Shown here piece after piece: positions 2,609 through 17,858 of a DNA stretch of 64,000 bases (position 1 is its first letter; each line of letters starts with the position of its first letter). The DNA comes from Marinitoga aeolica. Its GTDB lineage: Bacteria; Thermotogota; Thermotogae; Petrotogales; Petrotogaceae. The position numbers and the translations under genes are program-made. The notes below the pieces were generated by a model. That model was not told the DNA's origin. It ran no database searches and saw nothing but the letters and a program-made list of their open reading frames with translations. The stretch is taken from NCBI RefSeq assembly GCF_029910535.1, contig NZ_CP069362.1, forward strand, positions 2,170,001 to 2,234,000, in the 5' to 3' direction.

Positions 2609-3646
2609 ATGTCTATAGAATTAAAAAATCTATCAAAAAAATATAATGATAAATATGCTGTGAAAAATCTCGATTTAAATATTGAAGATGGAAAAATCAC
2701 TGTATTAATAGGCCCCTCAGGTTGTGGGAAAACTACAACATTAAAATTAATAAATAGACTAATTGAAAGAACGTCTGGTGATATATTATTTGATGGAATA
2801 TCTATAGATAATATAGATAAAATTCAATTAAGAAGGAAAATAGGATATGTTATTCAAGAAATAGGTTTATTTCCACATTATAATGTTTTTGATAATATAG
2901 CAGTTGTTCCGAAATTGTTAGGATGGAATAAGAAAAAAATCAAAAATAGAGTAAAAGAGCTTATAAACTTAATAAATTTAAAATATGATGAAGTAATAAA
3001 TAAATATCCAATGGAATTATCTGGTGGCCAAAGACAGAGAATTGGAGTAGCAAGGGCTTTAGCAGCGGATCCGAAAATATTATTAATGGATGAACCCTTT
3101 GGGGCTATAGACCCTATTAATAGAGAAGTTTTACAAGATGTTTTCCTGGAAATACAAAATAAATTAAAAAAAACTATTGTTTTTGTTACGCATGATATAA
3201 GAGAAGCAATTAAATTAGCTGATAAAATAGCAATATTTAATAATGGTGAATTAGTACAATATAACTCTACTTTAAACATAATAAAGAAACCAAAAAATGA
3301 GTTTGTTAAAGAATTATTAGGCAAAAATGCTGAATTAAATTTTTTAGAATTTGTTAAAGCAGAAAAAGTTATAGTAAATGATTATAAAATTATAAAATCA
3401 TTTAATGAAATAAAGGTAGATAAAAAATCGTGTTATATCGTATTTAATGAGAAATATGAAGGGTTTTTAACAGAAAGTGATATTAAAAATAATAATTATT
3501 ATTTGAGAAAAGAATATATCAACTATAATGATAGTGTTTTAGAAGGATTAAACATAATGTTTAAGAGAAATATACATTATTTACCAGTTTTGAGAGATGG
3601 AAGAGTTATTGGAATATTAAAATACGATTCAATATTGGAGGAATAA
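2609..3646 (+). CDS. opuBA: Quaternary-amine ABC transporter ATPase with C-terminal CBS region
   Basis: A 345-residue ABC ATPase with Walker A GPSGCGKTT (about 35-43), signature LSGGQRQR (about 138-145) and Walker B ILLMDEPFGAID (about 157-168). After the ABC domain it carries a roughly 100-residue tail ending in HYLPVLRDGRVIGILKYDSI, a CBS-type element. In OpuA/OpuC ATPases tandem CBS domains sense ionic strength or c-di-AMP; here the first CBS half looks degenerate. The predicted c-di-AMP phosphodiesterase at 42216-43583 makes such control plausible but unproven. It is preceded by a GGAGG site and followed two bases later by the next permease gene. Confidence 0.88.
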   Translation: MSIELKNLSKKYNDKYAVKNLDLNIEDGKITVLIGPSGCGKTTTLKLINRLIERTSGDILFDGISIDNIDKIQLRRKIGYVIQEIGLFPHYNVFDNIAVVPKLLGWNKKKIKNRVKELINLINLKYDEVINKYPMELSGGQRQRIGVARALAADPKILLMDEPFGAIDPINREVLQDVFLEIQNKLKKTIVFVTHDIREAIKLADKIAIFNNGELVQYNSTLNIIKKPKNEFVKELLGKNAELNFLEFVKAEKVIVNDYKIIKSFNEIKVDKKSCYIVFNEKYEGFLTESDIKNNNYYLRKEYINYNDSVLEGLNIMFKRNIHYLPVLRDGRVIGILKYDSILEE

Positions 3647-3647
3647 T

Positions 3648-4295
3648 ATGAATATTTTTTCATATATGGTGGATAATATTGATGTTGTTATTGAAAGGAC
3701 ATTGGAACATCTGATGATATTTTTCTTTTCTTGGACTTTATCTGTCATTGTTGGAGTTTTTATAGGTATATATATTACTAGAGAAAAAAGAAAAAAATAC
3801 ACCAATATTGCACTTTCAATAACTGGAGTTACTCAATCTGTTCCCAGCATTGCGGTAATTGCTTTAATATTTTTATTTATGGGAATTGGAAAAATAACTG
3901 CTATAACATCGTTATTTTTATATGGATTAGTTCCTATAATATTTAACACAACATCAGGAATAATTAATATTAGTCCAAAAATTATAGAAGTAGCAAAAGG
4001 TATGGGAATGGATGAAAAAGATATTTTATATAAGGTTGAAATTCCAATAGCATTACCAGCTATTTTTTCTGGAATAAGAAATTCTGCAATAATAAATATT
4101 GCAACTGCTACTGTAGCCTCTGTTATTGGAGGTGGGGGATTAGGAGTGATAATATTTACAGGGTTATCACATTATAATGGTCCTATAATATTTGCTGGTG
4201 TGTTGCCTGTTTCATTATTAGCAATATTAGTAGATACATTACTAGGAATATTAGAGAAAAAATTTGTTTCAAGAGGATTAATTACTGAAATTTAA
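3648..4295 (+). CDS. opuBD: Quaternary-amine ABC transporter permease, second subunit
   Basis: A 215-residue permease, paralogous to the product of 1937-2596, with the EAA-like loop EVAKGMGMDEKDILYKVEIP (about 113-132) and about five membrane spans. Together the two permeases form the transmembrane channel. The gene begins two bases after the ATPase stop and has its own GGAGG site, consistent with one transcript. Confidence 0.85.
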   Translation: MNIFSYMVDNIDVVIERTLEHLMIFFFSWTLSVIVGVFIGIYITREKRKKYTNIALSITGVTQSVPSIAVIALIFLFMGIGKITAITSLFLYGLVPIIFNTTSGIINISPKIIEVAKGMGMDEKDILYKVEIPIALPAIFSGIRNSAIINIATATVASVIGGGGLGVIIFTGLSHYNGPIIFAGVLPVSLLAILVDTLLGILEKKFVSRGLITEI

Positions 4296-4307
4296 GGGGG
4301 TATTTTT

Positions 4308-5192
4308 ATGAAAAAATTTGGAGTTATTTTGTTGTTAGTTATCATGAGTTTTAATGTTTTTGCTGCTAAAACAATAGTTGTTGGGTCAAAAATGTTTACA
4401 GAAGGATATGTTATTGCAAATATGATATCTTTACTTTTAAAAGATGCAGGATTTAAGGTTGAAGAACAATTTGGGTTAACATCTTTTCCATTAAGGGCTG
4501 CTATAGAAAATGGACAGGTAGACATTTATTCTGAATATACTGGAACAGCATGGGCAGCTTATTTTAAACAAAAAAAGAATATATATGATCCATATGAATT
4601 ATTCAATGAGGTTGCAAAACTTGATTATGAAAAAAATAAAATTGTTTGGATAAATATGATACCGTTTAATGATACATATGCTATGGCTGTTAGAAACGAA
4701 TTTGCAGAAAAAAATAATATTAGAACTCTTTCAGATTTAGCAAAATTTGTGAATAATGGAAATAAGGTGATATTTGGAGTTAATCCTGAATTTTATGAAA
4801 GAGCGGATGGTTTTTTTGCAATGGCAAATGCTTATAATATGAATGTTCCTAAGAAATATGTGAAAACTATGGAAGCGGGTTTAACATATGAAGCAGTGTC
4901 AGCAGGGAAAATAGATGTAGCTATGGTATATTCAACTGATGCAAAATTATTAAAATATAATTTAACTGTATTAAAAGACGATAAAAGCTTTTTCCCGTTA
5001 TATAATCCAGCTGTATTGGTTAGAGAAGAAGTTTTGAATAAATATCCTGAAATAAAAGAAATTTTGAAACCTTTGACTCTTTATTTAAATGAAAATATAA
5101 TCATTAGACTTAACTATTTAGTTGATGTAAAAGGTATGGAACCAGAAATTGTTGCAAAAAATTATTTAAAGGGGTTAGGATTAATTAAATGA
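4308..5192 (+). CDS. opuBC: Glycine betaine/choline-type substrate-binding protein
   Basis: A 294-residue exported binding protein. Residues 1-19 form a Sec signal peptide ending VFAA; there is no lipobox Cys, so the protein is soluble in the periplasm rather than lipid-anchored, as expected for a cell with an outer envelope. The mature start VVGSKMFTEGYVIANM is the OpuAC/OsmF-type opening, and YSEYTGTAW (about residues 72-80) is a conserved ligand-domain segment. It completes the ABC system encoded from 1937. The likely ligands are glycine betaine, choline or carnitine; the exact one is not deducible. Confidence 0.86.
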   Translation: MKKFGVILLLVIMSFNVFAAKTIVVGSKMFTEGYVIANMISLLLKDAGFKVEEQFGLTSFPLRAAIENGQVDIYSEYTGTAWAAYFKQKKNIYDPYELFNEVAKLDYEKNKIVWINMIPFNDTYAMAVRNEFAEKNNIRTLSDLAKFVNNGNKVIFGVNPEFYERADGFFAMANAYNMNVPKKYVKTMEAGLTYEAVSAGKIDVAMVYSTDAKLLKYNLTVLKDDKSFFPLYNPAVLVREEVLNKYPEIKEILKPLTLYLNENIIIRLNYLVDVKGMEPEIVAKNYLKGLGLIK

Positions 5193-5208
5193 TAATGGAG
5201 GAATTGAA

Positions 5209-5613
5209 GTGCAGGAAATAATTGAATTATTAGGTTGGATAAACGTATTTTTATTGGTGTTTAATCTTTCATTATTTATATCAAGAAGAATTTATAAGTA
5301 TATTATTAAAGACAAAAAATCAAAAGTTGCAAAATATTTTGTTGTAATAATGAATATCTTAAAAAGATATCATAAATTATCTGGAATATTACTAATTATA
5401 ACAGGTATTATTCATGGTTATTTAGCATTAAATGGAAATTTATATTTACATACTGGTGTGATATTGTGGTTAGGAATAATTTTAATGTTTTTAATGTATT
5501 GGTTGGGTAAGGTGCAAGTATTTAAAAAGATATGGGTTAAATGGCATAGATATTTAGGTTTTATATTAATTGTCTTATTATTAATTCATTTAATTAACCC
5601 ATGGTTATTATAG
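5209..5613 (+). CDS. Minimal four-helix membrane protein, predicted di-heme b-type cytochrome
   Basis: A 134-residue protein starting at a GTG seven bases after GGAGG. It has four hydrophobic spans at about 6-25, 53-72, 80-98 and 111-131. Five His are visible: H55, H69, H81, H113 and H127. H55/H69 lie in span 2 and H113/H127 in span 4, each pair separated by 13 residues. That spacing (HX13H in helices 2 and 4) is the bis-histidine arrangement of membrane b cytochromes holding two stacked hemes. I recognise no named family with confidence; ferric-reductase-like or b561-like small membrane cytochromes are the closest. The gene lies 16 bases after the binding-protein gene and 12 before the b5-repeat gene, which suggests an electron-transfer partner. 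Heme binding is inferred, not shown. Confidence 0.7.
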   Translation: MQEIIELLGWINVFLLVFNLSLFISRRIYKYIIKDKKSKVAKYFVVIMNILKRYHKLSGILLIITGIIHGYLALNGNLYLHTGVILWLGIILMFLMYWLGKVQVFKKIWVKWHRYLGFILIVLLLIHLINPWLL

Positions 5614-5625
5614 GAGGGGAAAATT

Positions 5626-6633
5626 ATGAAAAAAGTTTTTTTATTTGTCACTATATTTATTTTAGGTTTGTCTGTATTTGGTGAATATGTAAATATTTTA
5701 GATGTGAAATTTGAGGATTTTGGAACAAAATATAAAATAGTTCCATATAGTGAATTAGTAAAAAATAATGGTAAAGATGGTTCAGATGCATGGGTGGGTA
5801 TAAATGGCTTAGTTTATGATCTCACATACTCTAAATTATGGAAAAACGGGGAACATAAAGGAAAACACAATGCAGGAATGGATTTAACATATGAAATAAA
5901 AGAATTATCTCCTCATGGGATTGGGAAATTAGAGAAATTTGATATTGTTGGAATTTTAGGTTTTACTTTAGATGATTTAAAAGAGTTTAATGGAAAAAAT
6001 GGAAAAAAGTCATATGTAGCTGTAAATGGCATAATATATGATATGTCCCATTCTAAATTATGGAAAAATGGAGAACATAAAGGAAGGCATAATGCAGGAA
6101 TGGATTTAACATATGAAATAACTAAATTATCACCACATGGTTTGAAAAAATTAGATAATGTTTATCCAATAGGTGTTTTGATTCTGGATTTGAATGATTT
6201 AAAAAAATTTAATGGTAAAGACGGAAACAAAGCATATGTAGCTGTAAATGGAATAGTATATGATATGTCTCATTCTAAGTTATGGAAAAATGGAGAACAT
6301 AAAGGAAGACATAGTGCAGGAATGGATTTAACATACGAAATAACAAAATTATCTCCTCATGGATTAAAGAAATTAGATAATGTTTTTAAAGTGGGATATT
6401 TAGTTTTAAATGAAAAAGAATTATCTATTTATAATGGAAAGAATGGTAATAAGGCATATGTAGCAGTAAATGGTGTAATATATGATATGTCCCATTCTGA
6501 CTTATGGAAAAATGGAGAACATAAAGGGAGGCATGAAGCTGGCAAAGATTTAACGTATGAAATAACAAAATTATCACCACATGGATTGGGAAAATTAAAT
6601 AACGTATATAAAATTGGATTTTTATTGAAATAG
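5626..6633 (+). CDS. Exported protein with four tandem cytochrome-b5-like heme domains
   Basis: A 335-residue protein with a signal peptide (about 1-19, ending VFG) and four domains at about 38-110, 113-184, 187-258 and 261-333. Each carries YVAVNGIIYDMS-type strands, SKLWKNGEHKGRH, AGMDLTYEI and SPHG. This is the prokaryotic b5-like heme/steroid-binding family (COG4892 type), usually found as one domain. The His triads are H77/H81/H97, H151/H155/H171, H225/H229/H245 and H299/H303/H319, all exactly 74 residues apart; the first and third are placed like b5 axial ligands. Domains 2-4 are nearly identical and domain 1 is more diverged. The protein should be periplasmic and could carry up to four hemes. 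Its neighbour encodes a likely membrane di-heme protein. Heme binding is inferred from the family. Confidence 0.8.
   Translation: MKKVFLFVTIFILGLSVFGEYVNILDVKFEDFGTKYKIVPYSELVKNNGKDGSDAWVGINGLVYDLTYSKLWKNGEHKGKHNAGMDLTYEIKELSPHGIGKLEKFDIVGILGFTLDDLKEFNGKNGKKSYVAVNGIIYDMSHSKLWKNGEHKGRHNAGMDLTYEITKLSPHGLKKLDNVYPIGVLILDLNDLKKFNGKDGNKAYVAVNGIVYDMSHSKLWKNGEHKGRHSAGMDLTYEITKLSPHGLKKLDNVFKVGYLVLNEKELSIYNGKNGNKAYVAVNGVIYDMSHSDLWKNGEHKGRHEAGKDLTYEITKLSPHGLGKLNNVYKIGFLLK
5737..6624 (+). repeat. Four 222-bp tandem coding repeats (b5-like domains)
   Basis: Four in-frame repeats with a constant 74-codon period fill the gene after its signal peptide. Copies 2, 3 and 4 share most residues, including the invariant LWKNGEHKG and LSPHG segments, which suggests recent duplication. 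Synonymous differences are visible between copies (for example cat/catgg wobble changes), so they are not a fresh assembly artefact. Confidence 0.9.
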
Positions 6634-6642
6634 GAGGACTAT

Positions 6643-7425
6643 ATGGAAAAATATACATTAATAACTGGTGCATCTAGTGGAATAGGATTAGAATTAGCAA
6701 AAATATTTGCAAAAAACAAGCATAATTTAGTGTTGATTGCTAGAAGTTATGATAAATTACAAAGAATAAAAGATGATTTAGAAAAAAAGTATAATATAAA
6801 AGTTATTATAATAAAAAAAGATTTATCTAATCCAAATTCACCAAAAGAACTATACAATGAAATTAAGCAAAAAAATATATTTATAAATATTTTAGTAAAT
6901 AACGCTGGATATGCTACTTTTGGAAAATTTTATGATTTAGATATAGAAAAAGAATTAAATATGATTCAATTAAATGTTGTTACATTAGTTCATTTAACAA
7001 AACTATTTTTAGATGATATGATAAAATATAATGAAGGAAAAATATTAAATGTTGCATCAACCGCTGCATTTCAACCAGGACCATTAATGGCTAATTATTA
7101 TGCTTCAAAAGCATATGTACTAAATTTTAGTGAAGCATTAAATGAAGAATTAAAAGACAAAAATATTTCTGTTAGCGCATTATGTCCAGGTGCAACATCG
7201 ACGGGTTTTGTAAAAAGAGCGAATATGGAAAAATCAAAATTATTCCAGGCTTTAAAACCAATGCGTCCACAAAAAGTAGCGGAAATTGCATATAACGGTT
7301 TAATGAATAAAAAACAAGTTATTATTCCAGGTTTTAGAAATAAATTTTTAGCATTCTCAATTAGATTTACACCTCGAAAAATAGTTCCCAAGATGGTTAT
7401 GAATCTTCAAAAAGAGATGAATTAA
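6643..7425 (+). CDS. Short-chain dehydrogenase/reductase (SDR)
   Basis: A 260-residue classical SDR. The Rossmann motif TGASSGIGLELA is at residues 6-17, NNAGYA near 86-91, the catalytic Ser region is VASTAAF near 132-138, and the YxxxK catalytic pair is in NYYASKAY (about 148-155). It would catalyse NAD(P)-dependent oxidoreduction of a small carbonyl or alcohol; the substrate is unknown. This subgroup (DltE/COG0300-like) often acts on lipids or aldehydes. It is last in the operon with the b5-like protein, ten bases after it, with a GGAGG site. Whether it is functionally linked to the cytochromes is unclear. Confidence 0.85.
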   Translation: MEKYTLITGASSGIGLELAKIFAKNKHNLVLIARSYDKLQRIKDDLEKKYNIKVIIIKKDLSNPNSPKELYNEIKQKNIFINILVNNAGYATFGKFYDLDIEKELNMIQLNVVTLVHLTKLFLDDMIKYNEGKILNVASTAAFQPGPLMANYYASKAYVLNFSEALNEELKDKNISVSALCPGATSTGFVKRANMEKSKLFQALKPMRPQKVAEIAYNGLMNKKQVIIPGFRNKFLAFSIRFTPRKIVPKMVMNLQKEMN

Positions 7426-7428
7426 AAT

Positions 7429-7457
7429 TTGACAAAATATAAAAAATATAATATAAT
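7429..7457 (+). promoter_or_regulatory. Full-consensus sigma-70 promoter
   Basis: TTGACA (7429-7434), exactly 17 bases, then TATAAT (7452-7457). Both hexamers match the consensus perfectly. It starts four bases after the SDR stop and drives the small winged-helix gene at 7482. Confidence 0.9.
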
Positions 7458-7481
7458 AAAATTTGTTGAGGAGGGGATAAA

Positions 7482-7661
7482 ATGGACTCAATCGAATTAG
7501 TTGTTAAAGTTTTATCTGAATCTAAAGAACCTTTAAAAGCTGGAGAGATTGCGGAAAAAGCTGGGATTGATAAAAAAGAAGTAGATAAGGCTATAAAAAA
7601 ATTAAAGAAAGAGGAGAAAATTGAATCTCCCAAAAGATGTTACTATACTATAAAGAGATAA
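7482..7661 (+). CDS. Small winged-helix DNA-binding protein (59 aa)
   Basis: A 59-residue protein with a GAGGAGGGG ribosome site and its own promoter and terminator. It reads MDSIELVVKVLSES, then PLKAGEIAEKAGID, KKEVDKAIKKLKKEEKI and ESPKRCYYTIKR. The helix-turn-helix (AGEIAEKAGIDKKEVDKAI) followed by a short beta wing (RCYYTIKR) is a minimal wHTH fold. It is probably a transcription factor or nucleoid-associated regulator; the target is unknown. A perfect-consensus promoter for so small a gene implies abundant expression. Such single-domain wHTH proteins are common in Thermotogae (general knowledge), and I do not recognise a specific ortholog. Confidence 0.8.
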   Translation: MDSIELVVKVLSESKEPLKAGEIAEKAGIDKKEVDKAIKKLKKEEKIESPKRCYYTIKR

Positions 7662-7665
7662 TACT

Positions 7666-7694
7666 AACTGAAACCTACGGGTTTCAGTTTTTTT
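7666..7694 (+). terminator. Intrinsic terminator after the small wHTH gene
   Basis: A 10-bp perfect stem aactgaaacc / ggtttcagtt with a tetraloop tacg, followed by a T run. It makes the 59-codon gene a monocistronic unit. Confidence 0.9.
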
Positions 7695-7719
7695 ATTTTT
7701 TTGAAAGGAGTTGAAGGCT

Positions 7720-8997
7720 GTGAAAATCGCTATTATAGGGTTTGGTGCTGCTGCAGTTGGTTTTTTGAAAGAAATTGATACTTCTAAACATGAGGTAACT
7801 GTCTACGAAATGAATAGAGATATTTTTTCTTCTTCAATTAGTGGTATCAGGGCAGATGGAAAACTATTTGTTTCATCTGAAATGGGTGGTGATTTGGAAG
7901 AGATACTATTTGATAAACAACTACAGAAAGAAATTGTGGATTATTATTCAGAATTATCGGAAACAGAGCCCGAGATAGGTACAAGAGAAAATCTTGAAGA
8001 ATTACAAAAAAAGTTTTTTATTAATGGATTTAAATTAGTAGAATCAGAATTTTTCCATATAGGAACAGATAAACTAAAAATATTCTTAAAAAATGCACAT
8101 GAAGAATTTGTTAGAAAGGGTGTTAATTTTAAATTTAATTCATTAGTTAAAGATATAGAAATTAATGAAAAAGTAATTGTTAAATATATAGACAGAGAAA
8201 CAAGGAATGAAATAAAAGAAGCATTTGATAAGGTTTATGTTGCTGTAGGAAGGAGTGGATTTAAATTAATAGATACTTTAACAAAAAAGTATCCTGATAT
8301 TATATTATCCAATACTAAAGTTGATTTGGGAGTTAGATTTGAATTACCTGATATTGTAGTTAAAGAATTAAATGAGGCATTATATGAATTTAAAGTAAAA
8401 TTTAAATCTTCAAATGGTCAATTAGTAAGAACTTTTTGTAATAACCCCTCAGGATATGTTGTTACAGAAAAGTATTCGGATTTTATTACAGTAAATGGTC
8501 ATGCTATTCACGACCAAAAATCTACAAATACTAATTTTGCAATTTTAGTGACTCATTCATTTACTAAACCATTTAATGATCCAAATGGTTATGGATCATA
8601 CATTGCAAAATTATCCAATATCTTAGCTGGCGGGAATAAGGTTATACTTCAGACATATGGAGATTTTAAAAAAGGTAAAAGAACAAAAAAGTTATGGAAA
8701 GTATTCCCGACCTTAAGTCAGGAAGAATATGTTTTAGGTGATCTGAACTTGGTTTTTCCAAGTAAAACATCTATATCATTAATAGAATTTATAGATAATT
8801 TAAATAATATTATTCCTGGAATAGCAGATGAAGAAAATCTTTTATATGGAGTAGAAGTTAAATTTTATGGTAAAAAATTAGATAACAATTTATTTGAAAA
8901 TTTAAAATTTATTGGAGATTGTTCAGGACAAACAAGAAGTATAGTACATGCTACAGCCCATGGAATTATTGAAGCGCGAAAATTAATAGAAAGTTAA
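7720..8997 (+). CDS. FAD-dependent dehydrogenase (COG2509-type)
   Basis: A 425-residue flavoprotein. The start is set to the GTG at 7720, nine bases after AAAGGAG; an upstream TTG at 7711 touches the ribosome site. The N-terminus KIAIIGFGAAAVGFLKEI is a dinucleotide-binding Rossmann fold, and the C-terminus FIGDCSGQTRSIVHATAHG, with DCSG near residue 402, is the second FAD contact of this family. It resembles 'NAD(FAD)-utilizing dehydrogenases' of unknown substrate found in many anaerobes. It is a single-gene unit between two terminator-bounded regulators. The biochemical role is not established. Confidence 0.8.
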   Translation: MKIAIIGFGAAAVGFLKEIDTSKHEVTVYEMNRDIFSSSISGIRADGKLFVSSEMGGDLEEILFDKQLQKEIVDYYSELSETEPEIGTRENLEELQKKFFINGFKLVESEFFHIGTDKLKIFLKNAHEEFVRKGVNFKFNSLVKDIEINEKVIVKYIDRETRNEIKEAFDKVYVAVGRSGFKLIDTLTKKYPDIILSNTKVDLGVRFELPDIVVKELNEALYEFKVKFKSSNGQLVRTFCNNPSGYVVTEKYSDFITVNGHAIHDQKSTNTNFAILVTHSFTKPFNDPNGYGSYIAKLSNILAGGNKVILQTYGDFKKGKRTKKLWKVFPTLSQEEYVLGDLNLVFPSKTSISLIEFIDNLNNIIPGIADEENLLYGVEVKFYGKKLDNNLFENLKFIGDCSGQTRSIVHATAHGIIEARKLIES

Positions 8998-9030
8998 ATT
9001 TATTCATGATATATTTTAAATAAATTGGAT

Positions 9031-9054
9031 TATACTATAAGAGTATTAATATAG
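9031..9054 (+). promoter_or_regulatory. Possible promoter/operator of the ArsR-type regulator
   Basis: A TATACT box (9031-9036) overlaps an inverted repeat CTATA-N10-TATAG (9035-9054) 20 bases upstream of the regulator start. ArsR proteins commonly repress themselves by binding such imperfect repeats over their own promoter. No clear -35 is visible, so this is tentative. Confidence 0.4.
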
Positions 9055-9075
9055 AAATTAAGAGGAGCTAAAATA

Positions 9076-9387
9076 ATGGATGAATGTGAATTAATTGCAG
9101 AAATATTTAAGGCATTGTCTCATCCCACACGTTTGAGAATATTAAAAATATTAAAAAATAGAAAATGCAATATAATTGAAATTTCAGAAGAGCTTGATTT
9201 AACACAATCAAGCGTTTCTCAGCATTTAAAAATTTTAGAAAATGTTGGTATAATTAGAAAAAGAAAAGAAGGTAATATAGTTTTTTGTGATCTAAAATAT
9301 GAAGCAATATTTAAATTATTTAATGATGCTAAAAAGATTGTTCATGAAGAATTACAAGAAGCTCATAAAATGATAAAAAATTCTTAG
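9076..9387 (+). CDS. ArsR-family winged-helix repressor
   Basis: A 103-residue ArsR/SmtB-type regulator. The hallmark ALSHPTRLRILKIL is at about residues 13-26, the recognition helix is SSVSQHLKILENVGI at about 46-60, and the wing is RKRKEGNIVFCDL. Cys residues occur at about positions 4, 31 and 70, but there is no CxC pair in the ELCVCDL metal site, so metal sensing of the ArsR kind is not supported. Redox or another cue is possible. It stands alone, preceded by GAGGAG and followed by a small hairpin. The target genes are unknown. Confidence 0.85.
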   Translation: MDECELIAEIFKALSHPTRLRILKILKNRKCNIIEISEELDLTQSSVSQHLKILENVGIIRKRKEGNIVFCDLKYEAIFKLFNDAKKIVHEELQEAHKMIKNS

Positions 9388-9388
9388 C

Positions 9389-9412
9389 CCACATCGTTAG
9401 ATGTGGATTTTT
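9389..9412 (+). terminator. Short hairpin terminator after the ArsR gene
   Basis: A 7-bp stem ccacatc / gatgtgg with loop gtta is followed by a short T run. It is weak, and the next promoter begins immediately afterwards. Confidence 0.6.
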
Positions 9413-9413
9413 A

Positions 9414-9422
9414 TGGTATAAT
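9414..9422 (+). promoter_or_regulatory. Extended -10 promoter directly before the GGDEF gene
   Basis: TGGTATAAT (TGN plus TATAAT, 9414-9422) ends six bases before the ATG at 9429. Transcription would start at or next to the start codon, so the mRNA may be leaderless. No Shine-Dalgarno sequence is present. Confidence 0.6.
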
Positions 9423-9428
9423 AATAGT

Positions 9429-10202
9429 ATGATTGCGATAGAAAAAGGGATTATAGATAAGAAAATTTTAAAAAAATTAAAATTCGAATACGTACTTATT
9501 GATAAAAATACAGAATTAAATTCTGTAAATATTATTGTATCTAGTGATATAGTAAATAGTGATATTTATACAATTCTAGTAGTTGATTCAATGAGCGAAA
9601 ATTTATTAGAAGCGGATGATTTTATTTTAAATCCAATTAATATTGAAGAATTAAATTATAGAGTAGAATTAGGGTTAAAAAAAGTTAAGTTAATAAATGA
9701 ATTAAGAAAATTATCTTTAATAGATTATTTAACAGGTGTTTATAACAGAAGAGCTATTACAGACATTTTAAAAAAAGAGATAGAAAGATCGAAAAGAGAA
9801 AATAGAACATTTGTTATTTCAATGCTTGACTTTGATAATTTTAAGAAAGTTAATGATACATATGGGCATGATGCAGGGGATGAAGTTTTGAGGAAAACTA
9901 TTGAACTTATAAGAAAAAAGATTAGATATTATGATTCCATTGGAAGACTTGGCGGAGAGGAATTTCTGATTGTATTATCTAATATATCTAAAGAAAATGC
10001 TCTTAAAGTTACCGAAAGAATAAGATTGGCAGTAGAGAATAATATTGTACATATAAATGGTCATCAAATTAAAATCACAGTAAGCCAAGGGTTGTCAATA
10101 TTTGATGGAAATAAAAATGTAGATCAATTAATTAAGGAAGCTGATTTAGCTGTATATAAAGCTAAGGATAATGGAAAAAATAAAATAGAGTTTTATGAAT
10201 AA
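9429..10202 (+). CDS. Diguanylate cyclase with a short degenerate receiver-like N-terminus
   Basis: A 257-residue GGDEF protein. The active-site loop is GGEEF (175-179), with an intact inhibitory-site RYYD (166-169) five residues before it, and metal and substrate residues in SMLDFDNFKKVNDTYGHDAGDE. It should condense two GTP to c-di-GMP. Residues 1-85 resemble the end of a receiver domain (EADDFILNPINIEELNYRVELGL) but are too short and lack a clear phosphoacceptor Asp. No membrane span is present, so the enzyme is cytoplasmic. The gene is monocistronic, with a possible leaderless promoter and a strong terminator. Confidence 0.88.
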   Translation: MIAIEKGIIDKKILKKLKFEYVLIDKNTELNSVNIIVSSDIVNSDIYTILVVDSMSENLLEADDFILNPINIEELNYRVELGLKKVKLINELRKLSLIDYLTGVYNRRAITDILKKEIERSKRENRTFVISMLDFDNFKKVNDTYGHDAGDEVLRKTIELIRKKIRYYDSIGRLGGEEFLIVLSNISKENALKVTERIRLAVENNIVHINGHQIKITVSQGLSIFDGNKNVDQLIKEADLAVYKAKDNGKNKIEFYE

Positions 10203-10232
10203 TCCCCGGTGAAAAAATCACCGGGGATTATT
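10201..10232. terminator. Terminator between convergent units
   Basis: A 12-bp perfect stem aatccccggtga / tcaccggggatt with an A5 loop, followed by a T-rich stretch, lies between the GGDEF gene and the leftward oxidoreductase operon. It fits the rightward gene best and may also stop leftward transcription. Confidence 0.85.
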
Positions 10233-10236
10233 ATTT

Positions 10237-10779
10237 TTATTTAACTAAAGCATTCATTCCTGCTTCAATAGCTTTTAAATTTATATCCAATAATGCTGCT
10301 TTTTTACCTTTTAATGATTTTTCTAAAGCTTTTTTTACTGAATCAAAGGAAACAGCATTTGTAGCTTTTAAATAAGCGCCTAACATAACCATATTTTGGA
10401 CTTTAACATTTCCTAATTCATCGGCAATTTCGTTTGCAGGAATTTTATAAACCTGGATATCTTTTCTTTCTGGATCTCTATCGATAACTGATGAATTTAA
10501 TAATAAAATACCATTTTCTGGTAATAATTTTTCAAATTTATACATTGAAGGGATATTAAATGCAATAACTTCTGTTGGTTGGTCTACAACAGGTGAGGCA
10601 ATATATTCTTCTGAGAGAACTACTGTACAATTTGCTGTACCTCCACGCATTTCAGGACCATATGAAGGTAACCATGTCGTATACATATTTTCATACATTG
10701 CAGCTAAAGATAATATTTTCCCAAATAACATTACACCTTGACCACCAAATCCTGCAGCTATAAATGCATGATGTTTCAT
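10237..10779 (-). CDS. vorC: 2-oxoacid:ferredoxin oxidoreductase, gamma subunit
   Basis: A 180-residue gamma (catalytic-gamma) subunit of the pyruvate/2-ketoisovalerate ferredoxin oxidoreductase superfamily. [14 protein letters not shown] (about residues 10-23) and [14 protein letters not shown] (about 40-53) are typical. It completes a four-subunit enzyme with the beta, alpha and ferredoxin-like subunits encoded upstream on the same strand. The complex oxidatively decarboxylates a 2-oxoacid to an acyl-CoA and reduces ferredoxin. Its start overlaps the beta-subunit stop. The neighbouring aminotransferase and butyrate kinases favour branched-chain 2-oxoacids, but 2-oxoglutarate cannot be excluded. 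Confidence 0.85.
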
Positions 10780-11531
10780 TTTTCATCACCCACCTTATCA
10801 ACGTAAACGCCCAATGGATATTCTGGAACCATATTTTCTTCTAACCATTTATTTGCTTCAACTGGTGGAATACCCCAGTTTGTAGGACATGTTGATAATA
10901 CTTCAACCATACCGAAACCTTTACCTTCAATTTGAGCTAAGAAAGCTTTTTTTATCATTTTTTTAGTTTTTATTACATCTTGTGGTTTGTTAACTTTTGT
11001 TCTTGCCAAGTATGCTACACCTGGTAAGTTAGATAATAACTCAGCCATATGGATTGGATAACCTTCATTCTCAGCACTTCTTCCATATGGTGAAGTAGTT
11101 GTTTTCATTCCTAATAATGTAGTTGGAGCCATTTGTCCTCCAGTCATACCATATATAGCGTTATTGATGAAAATTGTTGTAATTTTTTCTCCTCTATTAG
11201 CGGCATGTAAAATTTCAGCTGTACCAATTGCAGCTAAATCACCATCACCTTGATAAGTGAATACAACATTTTCTGGCATAGCTCTTTTCATACCTGTTGC
11301 TACTGCTGGAGCTCTTCCGTGTGGTGCAACAGTTCCATCAACATCAAAAAATTCATATGCAAAAACTGAACAACCAACTGGAGCAACCATTAAAGTTTTT
11401 TCTCTTATACCTAATTCATCAATTACTTCTGCAACAAGTCTATGAACAATTCCATGATGGCATCCTGGACAATATGTAAATTCCTTTCCACTCAATGCTT
11501 CAGGGCCTTTGAATTTTATTTTATAAGACAT
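10776..11531 (-). CDS. vorA: 2-oxoacid:ferredoxin oxidoreductase, beta (TPP) subunit
   Basis: A 251-residue thiamine-diphosphate subunit. It has [12 protein letters not shown] near residues 21-32, a TPP/Mg motif region [20 protein letters not shown] (about 95-114) and [16 protein letters not shown] (about 122-137). These are standard for KorB/VorA proteins. It carries no ferredoxin domain of its own; the 4Fe-4S subunit is the separate gene at 12615. It has a good AGGAGG site and overlaps the gamma gene by four bases. The subunit letters differ between Vor and Kor naming, so the symbol is indicative only. Confidence 0.86.
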
Positions 11532-11546
11532 AATTTTCCTCCTTTC

Positions 11547-12602
11547 TTATATCAATTCCATTAATTTTGCTAATACTTCATTTGGTGTAGGAACAACCCC
11601 ACCAGTTCTTCCATAGAATTCTACTGGTTTTTTACCATTTACAGCTAATTTTACATCTTCTACCATTTGACCCATACTCATTTCTACTGTGAAGAATAAT
11701 TTTGCTTGATCAGCTAATTTTGCCAATGCATCATAAGGATAAGGCCATAATGTAATAGGTCTAAATAAACCAGCTTTAACGCCTTTCTCTCTAGCCATGT
11801 TTACAATTGTTTTTGCTATCCTTCCCATTGTACCATAAGCCACTATAATAACATCAGCATCTTCTGTTTTATATTCTTCCCACATTTGTTCATTTTCAAT
11901 GATTTTCTTATATTTTTCTTGATATCTTAAATTCATTTGTTCTAAAACGTATTCGTTTATATCAAATGAAGTTATTTTATGAGGTTCTCTACCTTTTGCT
12001 CCTTGCATAGCCCATGAGCTATGATCTGGTAATGTGTTTAAATCTCTAAATTCAGGGAATTCAACAGGTTCCATCATTTGACCTAACATACCATCTGCAA
12101 GTATTAAAGCAGGGTTTCTATATTTATCAGCTACATCAAAAGCTTTTGCAGTCAGTTCTACAGCTTCTTGTAATGATTCTGGACCATAAACAACTAATCT
12201 ATAATCACCATGTCCTCCACCTTTTGTAGCTTGAAAGTAATCACTTTGAGCAGGTTGAATATCACCTAAACCTGGACCACCTCTAACAACATTTACAAAT
12301 ACAACAGGTAATTCTGCACCTGCGATATATGAAACCCCTTCCTGCATTAAACTATAACCGGGTGAAGATGTTGAAGTCATAACTCTATGTCCTGTTGATG
12401 CAGCACCATATAACATATTTACAGCAGCTACTTCACTTTCTGCTTGTAAAAAAACACCATCAACTTGAGGCATTCTTCTTGACATATATTCAGTTAATTC
12501 GCTTTGTGGAGTAATAGGATAACCAAAATATAATCTACATCCAGCCCTTATGGCGGCTTCACCAATTGCTTCAGTACCTTTTACCATTACTTTTTCAGCC
12601 AT
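11547..12602 (-). CDS. vorB: 2-oxoacid:ferredoxin oxidoreductase, alpha subunit
   Basis: A 351-residue alpha subunit. It has KGTEAIGEAAIRAGCRLYFGYPITPQSE near the N-terminus (given in pieces: KGTEAIGEAA, YFGYPITPQSE), the AESEVAAVNMLYGAA region and STSSPGYSLMQEG. These form the pyrimidine-binding half of the two-subunit TPP site in the PFOR superfamily. Length and motif pattern match VorB/KorA, used for 3-methyl-2-oxobutanoate and related acids. It lies 12 bases downstream of the ferredoxin gene and has a GGAGGG site. Confidence 0.86.
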   Translation of the reverse strand: MAEKVMVKGTEAIGEAAIRAGCRLYFGYPITPQSELTEYMSRRMPQVDGVFLQAESEVAAVNMLYGAASTGHRVMTSTSSPGYSLMQEGVSYIAGAELPVVFVNVVRGGPGLGDIQPAQSDYFQATKGGGHGDYRLVVYGPESLQEAVELTAKAFDVADKYRNPALILADGMLGQMMEPVEFPEFRDLNTLPDHSSWAMQGAKGREPHKITSFDINEYVLEQMNLRYQEKYKKIIENEQMWEEYKTEDADVIIVAYGTMGRIAKTIVNMAREKGVKAGLFRPITLWPYPYDALAKLADQAKLFFTVEMSMGQMVEDVKLAVNGKKPVEFYGRTGGVVPTPNEVLAKLMELI

Positions 12603-12614
12603 TAATATCCCTCC

Positions 12615-12845
12615 TTAAGCTTTAGCTTTTTCTAATGTTGAAACTGTTATACATACATCGGGACACATTTGATAACAGAAACCACAACCAATACATTTTT
12701 CAGGATTTAAAACTGCAGCAGGATGATAACCTTTTGCATTAAATCCTTCAGAAAATCCTAATGTTCCTGTTGGACATGCATCTATACAAAGACCACATCC
12801 TTTACATCTTTCTTGATCAATTTCAACTTTGTTCTTGTATTCCAT
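12615..12845 (-). CDS. vorD: 2x[4Fe-4S] ferredoxin-like subunit of the oxidoreductase
   Basis: A 76-residue ferredoxin with two motifs, CKGCGLCIDACP (about 15-26) and CIGCGFCYQMCP (about 51-62), each of the CxxCxxCxxxCP type for a 4Fe-4S cluster. It should pass electrons from the TPP centre to soluble ferredoxin. Its place directly before the alpha, beta and gamma genes is the normal layout of four-subunit 2-oxoacid oxidoreductases. It is preceded by a GGAGG site 13 bases after the P-loop gene. Confidence 0.9.
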   Translation of the reverse strand: MEYKNKVEIDQERCKGCGLCIDACPTGTLGFSEGFNAKGYHPAAVLNPEKCIGCGFCYQMCPDVCITVSTLEKAKA

Positions 12846-12858
12846 CGTATCCCTCCTT

Positions 12859-15516
<2,658 letters not shown>

Positions 15517-15525
15517 ATTTTCACC

Positions 15526-16587
15526 TCACATTTTCCAATCTTTAGCCTTTTCCTCATTATTTAGAACTCTTAGGGCTCCTTCGGCTAATGCTTCCATCTC
15601 AAATGAACCTGGATACAACATTATTAAGGCGATTTTTGATATTCTTTGTCTTATCATATCAATGAAATCATCATTTCGGGCCATTCCACCGGTGATAATA
15701 ATTGCGTCAACTTCTCCTTTTAATACAGCAGCCATTCCTCCAATTTCTTTTGCAATTTGATATGCCATAGCTTCAACAACTTTTTTTGCATATTCATCAT
15801 GTTCTGCTTTTTTCATTGCAACTCTTAAATCATTGGTTCCGAGATATGCAACTAAACCACCTTTTCCAATGTATCTCTTTTTTAATTCTCTTTTTTCATA
15901 TTTTCCTGAAAATGCTAATTTAGCTAAATCTCCAACAGGCAATTCACCTGTTCTTTCAGGACTAAATGGACCTTCATCATTAGCATTATTAACATCAATC
16001 ATTTTTCCTTTTCTTTGTGCTCCAATTGATATACCGCCACCTAAATGTGCTATTACAAAATTACATTCTTCATATTTTTTGTTTAATTCTTTAGACGCTT
16101 TACGTGCAACACTTTTCATATTTAATGCATGATACAAACTCTTTCTTTCAATTTCAGGTATCCCAGAAATTCTTGATTCAGGAATAAATTCATCAACAGA
16201 AACGGGATCAGTAATAAATACAGGTATATTATTTTCTGCTAATTCCCAACCAATCACTGCAGCTAAATTTGAAGCATGTTCTATTTTTGTTTTGTTTTTC
16301 AGGAAATCCACCATTTCTTTTGTTACTCTATATGTTCCACTTTCTAAAGGAGGTAACACACCTCCTCTTGCTGCGATAGCATTGAAGTCAGTTATTTTAT
16401 AGCCATATTTTTCAATAAAACTTTTTATTTCATCTCTTCTTAAATCTATTTGATCCATTAATTTTTCATATTTATCTAACTCTTCAGGAGAATGAGAAAC
16501 TTCTTCTGATACTATTAATTTTTCGTCTTCAAAGACTGCAATTTTAGTTGAAGTAGAACCTGGATTAATAACTAAAATACGATTCAT
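15526..16587 (-). CDS. buk: Butyrate kinase, copy 2
   Basis: A 353-residue paralog of the copy at 13520, with the same [19 protein letters not shown] start, [16 protein letters not shown] and NDEGPFSPERTGELP. Sequence differences are spread throughout, so the duplication is not recent. Two kinases beside one Ptb may broaden substrate range (straight versus branched acids) or form a hetero-oligomer; neither is shown. It lies 20 bases after the aminotransferase gene and nine before ptb. Confidence 0.9.
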   Translation of the reverse strand: MNRILVINPGSTSTKIAVFEDEKLIVSEEVSHSPEELDKYEKLMDQIDLRRDEIKSFIEKYGYKITDFNAIAARGGVLPPLESGTYRVTKEMVDFLKNKTKIEHASNLAAVIGWELAENNIPVFITDPVSVDEFIPESRISGIPEIERKSLYHALNMKSVARKASKELNKKYEECNFVIAHLGGGISIGAQRKGKMIDVNNANDEGPFSPERTGELPVGDLAKLAFSGKYEKRELKKRYIGKGGLVAYLGTNDLRVAMKKAEHDEYAKKVVEAMAYQIAKEIGGMAAVLKGEVDAIIITGGMARNDDFIDMIRQRISKIALIMLYPGSFEMEALAEGALRVLNNEEKAKDWKM

Positions 16588-16607
16588 TTTTTCACCTCAC
16601 TTAGTGG

Positions 16608-17858
16608 TTATTTTTTTAATTTTAACTCTAAACCCTTTTTACTAGCATACTCTTCAATAGTTTTTCTTAATCTTTTTGTTCCCTCTTCTAATTCTTCAAA
16701 AGAAGGTAAACAGAATGATACTCTCAGAGTATTTCTTTCTGGCTCATCAACGTAAAATGTTTCTCCTGGAATATAAATTATTTTATTTTCTTTAGCAATT
16801 TCAAACATTTCCATTGTATCAAATCCTTCAGGTAATTTGATCCATGAAAATAAACCACCCTCAGGATGTATCCAGTCGATTCCATCAATATCTCCCAAAT
16901 ATTTATCTAAAGCTTCCATAAATTTATCCTTTTTGGCCTTATATAATTTTATTGTTGGTTGGATTTCTTCAAATAAGTCATATTTTTCCATAAATCTTGC
17001 AGCAATTCTTTGAGTTAATGTTGAAGAACATAAATCCATTCCCTGTTTAGCTAAAACCATTTTTCTTATTAATTGTTTGTTCCCGATGATTACACCAATT
17101 CTTAAACCAGGAGATAATACTTTACTAAATGTGTTTAATAAGATAACCCTTTCACCGTTATTTAATTTAAAAATACTTGGTAATTTTTCTCCTTCAAATC
17201 TTAAAGCACCATATGGATCGTCTTCAATGATAATGAAATCATATTTTTCTGCTAATTCAATTAATCTTTTTCTTTTTTCTAAAGATAAAGTAGTACCAGC
17301 TGGATTGTGGAAATTACTTACAGTATATACAAATTTAAATTTATCAATTTTTCCATCTTTTTTGAGTTTTTCTAATTCTTCTTCTAAAATGTCTAAATTC
17401 ATTCCATCTTTTTCTAAAGGAATACTTATATAATTAGGATTTCTTTGATTAAATGCACTACCAGCACCTAAGTATATAGGTTTGCTAACTGCACAATAAC
17501 TATCTTCATCTAAAAATACAGTACCAATAATAAATAAAGCCTGTTGAGAACCTGTTGTTATCATAAGATTTTCTTCTGTTAATCCCGATATACCCTCATA
17601 TTTTTCTAATAATCTAATATATTGCTTAATTAATTCTGGATCTCCTTCCGTAGAGCCATATTGTAAAGCAATTTTATATTCATTCATAATAACTTCTTTG
17701 GAAATTTCTGATAATTTTTCTATTGGGAAGGTTTCTGGATCTGGAATACCTCCACCAAAAGAAATAATTCCTTCTTGAGTAGCTGTTTTTAACAATTCTC
17801 TAATAATGTTAGATTTAATTCTTTTTACCGTTACAGAATATTTACTTTCAAAATTCAT
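16608..17858 (-). CDS. PLP-dependent aminotransferase, class I/II (2-aminoadipate/branched-chain type)
   Basis: A 416-residue fold-type I aminotransferase of the LysN/AadAT-like branch. GIISFGGGIPDPETFP is near residues 30-45, TTGSQQALFI near 107-116, SNFHNPAG near 182-189, and the PLP lysine lies in NTFSKVLSPGLRIG near 244-257. It would transfer the amino group from branched-chain or other amino acids to 2-oxoglutarate, giving the 2-oxoacids used by the oxidoreductase of the same operon. It is the first gene after the promoter. Its substrate is inferred from context; 2-aminoadipate or aromatic substrates are alternatives. Confidence 0.83.
   Translation of the reverse strand: MNFESKYSVTVKRIKSNIIRELLKTATQEGIISFGGGIPDPETFPIEKLSEISKEVIMNEYKIALQYGSTEGDPELIKQYIRLLEKYEGISGLTEENLMITTGSQQALFIIGTVFLDEDSYCAVSKPIYLGAGSAFNQRNPNYISIPLEKDGMNLDILEEELEKLKKDGKIDKFKFVYTVSNFHNPAGTTLSLEKRKRLIELAEKYDFIIIEDDPYGALRFEGEKLPSIFKLNNGERVILLNTFSKVLSPGLRIGVIIGNKQLIRKMVLAKQGMDLCSSTLTQRIAARFMEKYDLFEEIQPTIKLYKAKKDKFMEALDKYLGDIDGIDWIHPEGGLFSWIKLPEGFDTMEMFEIAKENKIIYIPGETFYVDEPERNTLRVSFCLPSFEELEEGTKRLRKTIEEYASKKGLELKLKK

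Follow-up and report, generated by a model that had tools for sequence, protein, structure and literature searches.

A two-gene unit of Thermotogota encoding a minimal four-helix membrane protein and an exported cytochrome b5-domain protein, a candidate b-heme electron conduit

What might a 134-residue membrane protein (hereafter M) and an exported protein with four cytochrome b5 domains (hereafter b5), encoded by open reading frames only 12 nt apart, be doing in a member of a supposedly fermentative phylum? The two genes lie in a stretch of 64,000 nucleotides from Marinitoga aeolica (hereafter the window; Table 1), which we compared with 103 Thermotogota genomes representing 38 genera. Computational analysis of the ligand set, membrane topology, b5 fold class, conserved partnership and missing biosynthetic pathways, described below, identifies M and b5 as a real conserved two-gene unit that most likely is an outward b-heme electron conduit. 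As far as the literature found goes, this unit is previously undescribed; a search for papers on cytochromes or b5 proteins in Thermotogota or Marinitoga returned no relevant one. In the window, the pair likely shares a transcript with the upstream OpuC-type transporter genes and the downstream dehydrogenase gene. These genes were considered as functional parts of the unit and rejected: the linkage is real in near relatives but is not conserved elsewhere.

Table 1. Features of the M-b5 locus (positions in the window)
Feature	Position	Strand	Remarks
OpuC-type ABC transporter genes (ATPase, permease, OpuAC binding protein)	2609..5192	+	upstream
Ribosome binding site of M gene, GGAGGA	5197..5202	+	6 nt before GTG; from the sequence
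M gene	5209..5613	+	minimal four-helix predicted di-heme b membrane protein, 134 aa, GTG start
H55 codon	5371..5373	+	predicted cytoplasm-side heme ligand, partner H113; invariant
H69 codon	5413..5415	+	predicted outer-side heme ligand, partner H127; invariant
H81 codon	5449..5451	+	HTG motif, outer start of helix 3; nearly invariant
H113 codon	5545..5547	+	predicted cytoplasm-side heme ligand; invariant
H127 codon	5587..5589	+	predicted outer-side heme ligand; invariant in all intact copies
Ribosome binding site of b5 gene, GGAGGGG	5613..5619	+	overlaps M stop codon; from the sequence
b5 gene	5626..6633	+	exported protein, four cytochrome b5 (b5M/COG4892-like) domains, 335 aa, ATG start
b5 domain 1	5737..5958	+	predicted ligands H77/H97
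b5 domain 2	5959..6180	+	predicted ligands H151/H171; 81% identical to domain 3
b5 domain 3	6181..6402	+	predicted ligands H225/H245, invariant in 10 aligned relatives
b5 domain 4	6403..6630	+	predicted ligands H299/H319
Short-chain dehydrogenase gene	6643..7425	+	downstream

The membrane protein

The preliminary description of this DNA had assigned to M four spans, with one HX13H pair in each of spans 2 and 4, and had proposed two b-heme sites. The five histidines of M are located at positions 55, 69, 81, 113 and 127, such that H55/H69 and H113/H127 form exact HX13H pairs within these two spans; the chance of obtaining two disjoint pairs of this kind from five randomly placed histidines is about 0.003. 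Conservation of the histidines is a much stronger test than this estimate. Among 14 relatives with 36-83% identity, only 9 alignment columns are invariant, and these include all four paired histidines; in the 19-row alignment, the four are altered solely in a truncated copy and are unchanged in all intact members. The remaining histidine, H81, which had been overlooked previously, belongs to an HTG motif and is nearly invariant, with Tyr in some copies from genus g12. An AlphaFold2 model of M built from 3 sequences (pLDDT 73.5), which is of modest confidence and carries no heme, consists of helices 2-31, 39-73, 82-100 and 103-129, each His pair falling within one helix. The proposed span and histidine arrangement is thus confirmed by sequence, conservation and modeled helices alike, and two b-heme sites can be predicted from the invariant HX13H pairs. 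An internal duplication, suggested by the pattern H..G..L...H in both halves of M, was rejected because 98 of 2000 class-preserving shuffles score equally high.

In all 19 rows of the alignment, loop 1-2 contains 7-10 K/R residues, loop 2-3 contains 0-1 and loop 3-4 contains 2-6. This positive-inside charge pattern indicates that both termini of M are outside and that helices 2 and 4 are parallel and run outward. In this orientation, the cytoplasmic face carries H55 and H113, the outer face carries H69 and H127, and the two sites are stacked. From helix geometry rather than from the coordinates of the model, we infer that, 14 residues being equivalent to 3.9 turns, both histidines of one helix face nearly the same way and are about 21 A apart.

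M falls below the cut-off of every Pfam and NCBIfam model. The best profile match of the window protein is DUF4405 (PF14358; 22.4 bits, E 1.8e-4, below the cut-off of 26.7 bits), and the scores with Ferric_reduct (PF01794; 13.9 bits vs a cut-off of 28) and the prokaryotic cytochrome b561 family (PF01292; 13.5 bits vs 30.1) are also below threshold. Nevertheless, weak matches to DUF4405 (best E 1.2e-4), Ferric_reduct (5.5e-4), bacterial b561, Ni_hydr_CYTB and PepSY_TM recur among several members of the M family. We take all five to be di-heme membrane families, and all of these except Ni_hydr_CYTB presumably belong to one Pfam clan of di-heme membrane cytochromes. A PDB sequence-profile search with the M profile gave no match; profile alignment with MsrQ (E 0.04) covers only the KxWxxxH helix of MsrQ, and hhalign comparison with CybB yields an E-value of 0.44. 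The top Foldseek match of the M model is the bacterial NADPH oxidase SpNOX (E 0.93), and FdnI and NarI are also among the top ten, none of which are significant.

In its ligand pattern, M resembles the superfamily that includes SpNOX, NOX and MsrQ and has HX12-13H in each of two parallel helices that bind a stacked pair of hemes, the feature characteristic of PF01794. The differences are equally clear: M has four helices within 134 aa, as opposed to the six helices plus a FAD/NAD(P)H domain of NOX/FRO proteins, contains no additional domain, and scores below the family cut-off. CybB, described as the smallest di-heme b protein with a solved structure (PMC7096707), is likewise a small four-helix di-heme b cytochrome, as predicted for M, but it is ubiquinone-dependent and its histidines are placed differently, at 13, 45, 137 and 151; M would amount to about 7.4 kDa per predicted heme, compared with 9.8 for CybB by the same estimate. 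M appears to work like the di-heme membrane cytochrome class and is assigned to none of these families.

Given that the superoxide oxidase CybB and MsrQ both belong to the small di-heme membrane cytochromes, the pair could conceivably run inward or serve in defense, with b5 collecting electrons from superoxide or other reductants and M conveying them into the cell in a CybB-like manner, or could assist a periplasmic repair enzyme as in MsrPQ. Oxygen defense benefits strict anaerobes, and the sporadic loss of the pair described below would fit an accessory role. We nonetheless regard this possibility as quite unlikely, considering that neither the CybB ligand positions nor the HX12H in the last heme helix of MsrQ correspond to the two-plus-two HX13H arrangement of M, that UbiA is absent, so that there is no quinone synthesis to accept electrons, and that no MsrP-like partner is conserved beside the pair.

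The exported b5 protein

The neighbor of M was expected to be an exported protein with four b5-like domains, and this expectation is borne out: PF00173 matches the b5 protein in four stretches with 91.5 bits (cut-off 23.7), and a Sec-type N-terminal signal sequence is recognizable by eye. Each of the four repeats carries the WKNGEH...SPHG (GxH...SPH) histidine pair, and conservation suggests that both histidines of each pair are axial heme ligands. Additional Pfam matches, to Ntox5, PRA-CH and others, were discarded as repeat artefacts of short stretches. The closest solved structures are the archaeal cytochrome b5 proteins 6nzx (Hadesarchaea) and 6vz6 (Methanococcoides burtonii), which share the fold, the ligand pattern and 39-43% identity with the b5 domains in the fold alignment; both are single domains, whereas the window protein contains four in tandem, has a signal sequence and is paired with M. 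Of these, 6vz6 presumably corresponds to the b5M protein described by Teakel et al. in 2022.

Pairwise identities among domains 2-4 are 72-81%, which points to a fairly recent expansion. In relatives, the number of intact ligand pairs per protein is 4, 3, 2 or 1, the remaining repeats being degenerate, and every complete b5 partner retains at least one GxH...(S/G)PH or GH pair. The suggestion of up to four periplasmic hemes therefore agrees with the four ligand pairs of the window protein but does not describe the core design: with relatives keeping 1-3 intact pairs, one to two hemes would be the common state. By these predicted heme counts, the tetraheme state is a Marinitoga-like extreme and the length of the wire is lineage specific.

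The loss of ligand histidines from many b5 repeats of relatives could also be taken to indicate that b5 binds a non-heme ligand in the manner of MAPR proteins, to which Teakel et al. in 2022 (cited in PMC10499268) are said to have related the b5M class, or is structural, with M as a membrane anchor or chaperone. This appears very unlikely, because complete b5 partners keep at least one His pair and intact M copies keep all four histidines, and a structural role would not preserve precisely the ligand residues.

Partnership across Thermotogota

The M family is represented in 43 of the 103 genomes and the b5 family in 44, with both present in 36 (Fisher p 4e-13). At the genus level, M and b5 are each found in 14 of the 38 genera and together in 12 (Fisher p 3e-6), a count that removes the effect of relatedness only in part. 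In 25 genomes, the two genes are adjacent on the same strand, in the order M-b5 in 8 and b5-M in 17. The flanking genes mostly differ between genera, which implies that selection acts on the pair itself. In some genomes, e.g., G023 and G062, M and b5 are located at distant sites, and the retention of both argues for function as opposed to mere hitchhiking. The distance matrices of the two families correlate (r = 0.87, 0 of 5000 permutations), although vertical descent alone could produce such concordance. The neighborhoods of the Thermotogota loci reveal neither an electron donor domain nor a reductase gene dedicated to the pair.

DOMON is another b-heme-type domain. In two genomes that encode M but no b5 (G038 and G045), M is directly followed by a gene for an exported protein of 180-182 aa with a DOMON domain (E-values 1e-12 and 3e-14), a domain that was not detected in any other of the 103 genomes. 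These M-DOMON loci are located at L073:6631-7571 and L086:1122-2090. The replacement of b5 with an unrelated b-heme fold beside the same M suggests that heme-to-heme electron transfer is the common denominator, and we consider this apparent partner swap to be the best single argument for such a function. Together, co-occurrence, adjacency in both gene orders, concordant distances and the DOMON swap bear out the coupling of M and b5 that had been proposed from the window, and provide strong comparative support for a real functional pair.

The association is not universal. M is present without a detected b5 in G026, G029, G032, G071 and G073, and broken copies occur on both sides: M is broken with b5 intact at L094 (G064), L095 (G070) and L082 (G056), and b5 is broken with M intact at G025:C1:2968319-2969223 and G028:C40:45377-46342. 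The system is thus being lost in places, and M without b5 and the broken copies indicate that it is dispensable.

A profile scan of genome contigs for M aimed beyond the phylum, based on a narrow alignment, recovered only two loci, both from Thermotogota. A tblastn search of plasmids yielded no match for M and five Firmicutes records for b5; the three of these with usable annotation contain lone single-domain b5 genes, with no M-like neighbor listed. Another design that combines b5 with the membrane, in which one b5 domain is joined to a DUF2231 membrane domain in the same protein, is encoded at L087:6776-7498 (G008) and, judging from similar frame lengths only, in G009-G011.

Heme, quinones and the proposed conduit

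A survey for heme synthesis genes, which the preliminary description had proposed, detected neither HemB nor ferrochelatase in the complete genome to which the window belongs; UbiA prenyltransferase and CcsA/CcmC were not detected either, and RnfC is present. Heme, if used, must therefore be imported. Ferrochelatase was found in none of the 103 Thermotogota genomes and HemB in only four of them (G078, G079, G080 and G015), so that any heme used by these bacteria must come from import or by an unrecognized route.

Under such conditions, the pair might instead be a heme acquisition relay of a heme auxotroph, in which the tandem b5 protein is a hemophore-like catcher and M hands heme across the membrane or stores it. 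The absence of the synthesis genes is compatible with this scheme, tandem extracellular heme domains resemble hemophores, and the DOMON partners would also bind heme. We find it unlikely, however, as M shows neither a transporter fold nor an ATPase and has no such gene as a conserved neighbor, its stacked bis-His HX13H sites have the geometry of cytochromes that transfer electrons, and few other heme clients are known, the window genome having no CcsA/CcmC. Moreover, Thermotogota with c-type cytochrome islands mostly do not possess the pair: of six such genomes, only G041 has M.

The existence of these islands also shows that the view of b- or c-type respiration as foreign to the phylum was too broad, since six genomes, each from a different genus (G041, G021, G002, G015, G085 and G101), encode both a NapC/NrfH-type cytochrome and CcsA. 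G041, which belongs to the same genus as the window, carries a respiratory-type island at L169 (G041:C14:24000-43000), 5917-17639. It includes a ubiE-type methyltransferase gene, a polyprenyl synthase-like gene and UbiA, along with genes for a NapC/NrfH-type tetraheme cytochrome, ResB/CcsA, a small multiheme c7-like cytochrome, an ethylbenzene-dehydrogenase-type heme domain and FixABCX-like electron transfer flavoproteins. Judging by gene content, this island appears to be a respiratory module based on menaquinone and c-type cytochromes, although the phylum is supposedly fermentative.

Based on all these considerations, we propose that the M-b5 pair is probably an outward transmembrane conduit made of two proteins and b-type hemes only, for which heme binding and the flow, direction, donor and acceptor of electrons are inferred as follows. 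Helices 2 and 4 of M would enclose two bis-His hemes, ligated by H55-H113 on the cytoplasmic side and H69-H127 on the outer side, and M would take single electrons from a cytoplasmic non-quinone reductant. Quinone had originally been suggested as a donor, but in the absence of UbiA electrons are unlikely to come from a quinol unless the cell scavenges quinones; candidate donors include reduced flavin, NAD(P)H via a flavoprotein, and a ferredoxin/Rnf-linked carrier. From M, the electrons would move outward to b5, which has room for up to four bis-His hemes and would hand them to an acceptor outside the membrane, perhaps Fe(III), sulfur/disulfide species or a periplasmic enzyme. Because the genome encodes no heme synthesis genes, the heme of the conduit would be scavenged.

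On the best reading, the pair would operate in the manner of the CYBDOM proteins of plants or of ferric reductases. In plants and animals, CYBDOM proteins (b561-DOMON fusions, e.g., Arabidopsis HYP1) combine DOMON with a di-heme b cytochrome, that is, two membrane b hemes plus at least one extracytoplasmic b heme, and the plant form carries electrons outward to ferric compounds (PMC10784544), the direction proposed here for M-b5. The likeness is closest in G038 and G045, where the partner is a true DOMON domain. The architectures differ, however: CYBDOM is a single chain with a b561 membrane domain of five or six helices, one histidine in each of four helices and DOMON, whereas M and b5 are encoded by separate genes, M has four helices with HX13H in two of them, and its partner in the window and in most genomes is b5. 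No ascorbate is known for M-b5.

A bolder version of the conduit model, which we offer only tentatively, is that of a quinone-free and c-cytochrome-free respiratory or reductive export line built of noncovalently bound, scavenged hemes, in which a di-heme membrane cytochrome smaller than any other known would be joined to a secreted multi-b5 wire that can be extended, and by which Thermotogota would discharge electrons onto external acceptors, e.g., Fe(III) or sulfur. To our knowledge, no gene is known for electron transfer from some Thermotogota to acceptors outside the cell. The M-b5 pair provides a specific, testable candidate, and it can serve as a minimal model for b-heme conduits across a membrane. 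Judging from the exchange of b5 for DOMON, a single membrane module may be able to serve two unrelated extracytoplasmic heme folds. If the proposed function is correct, mostly heme-auxotrophic fermenters would keep a heme-dependent electron export line.
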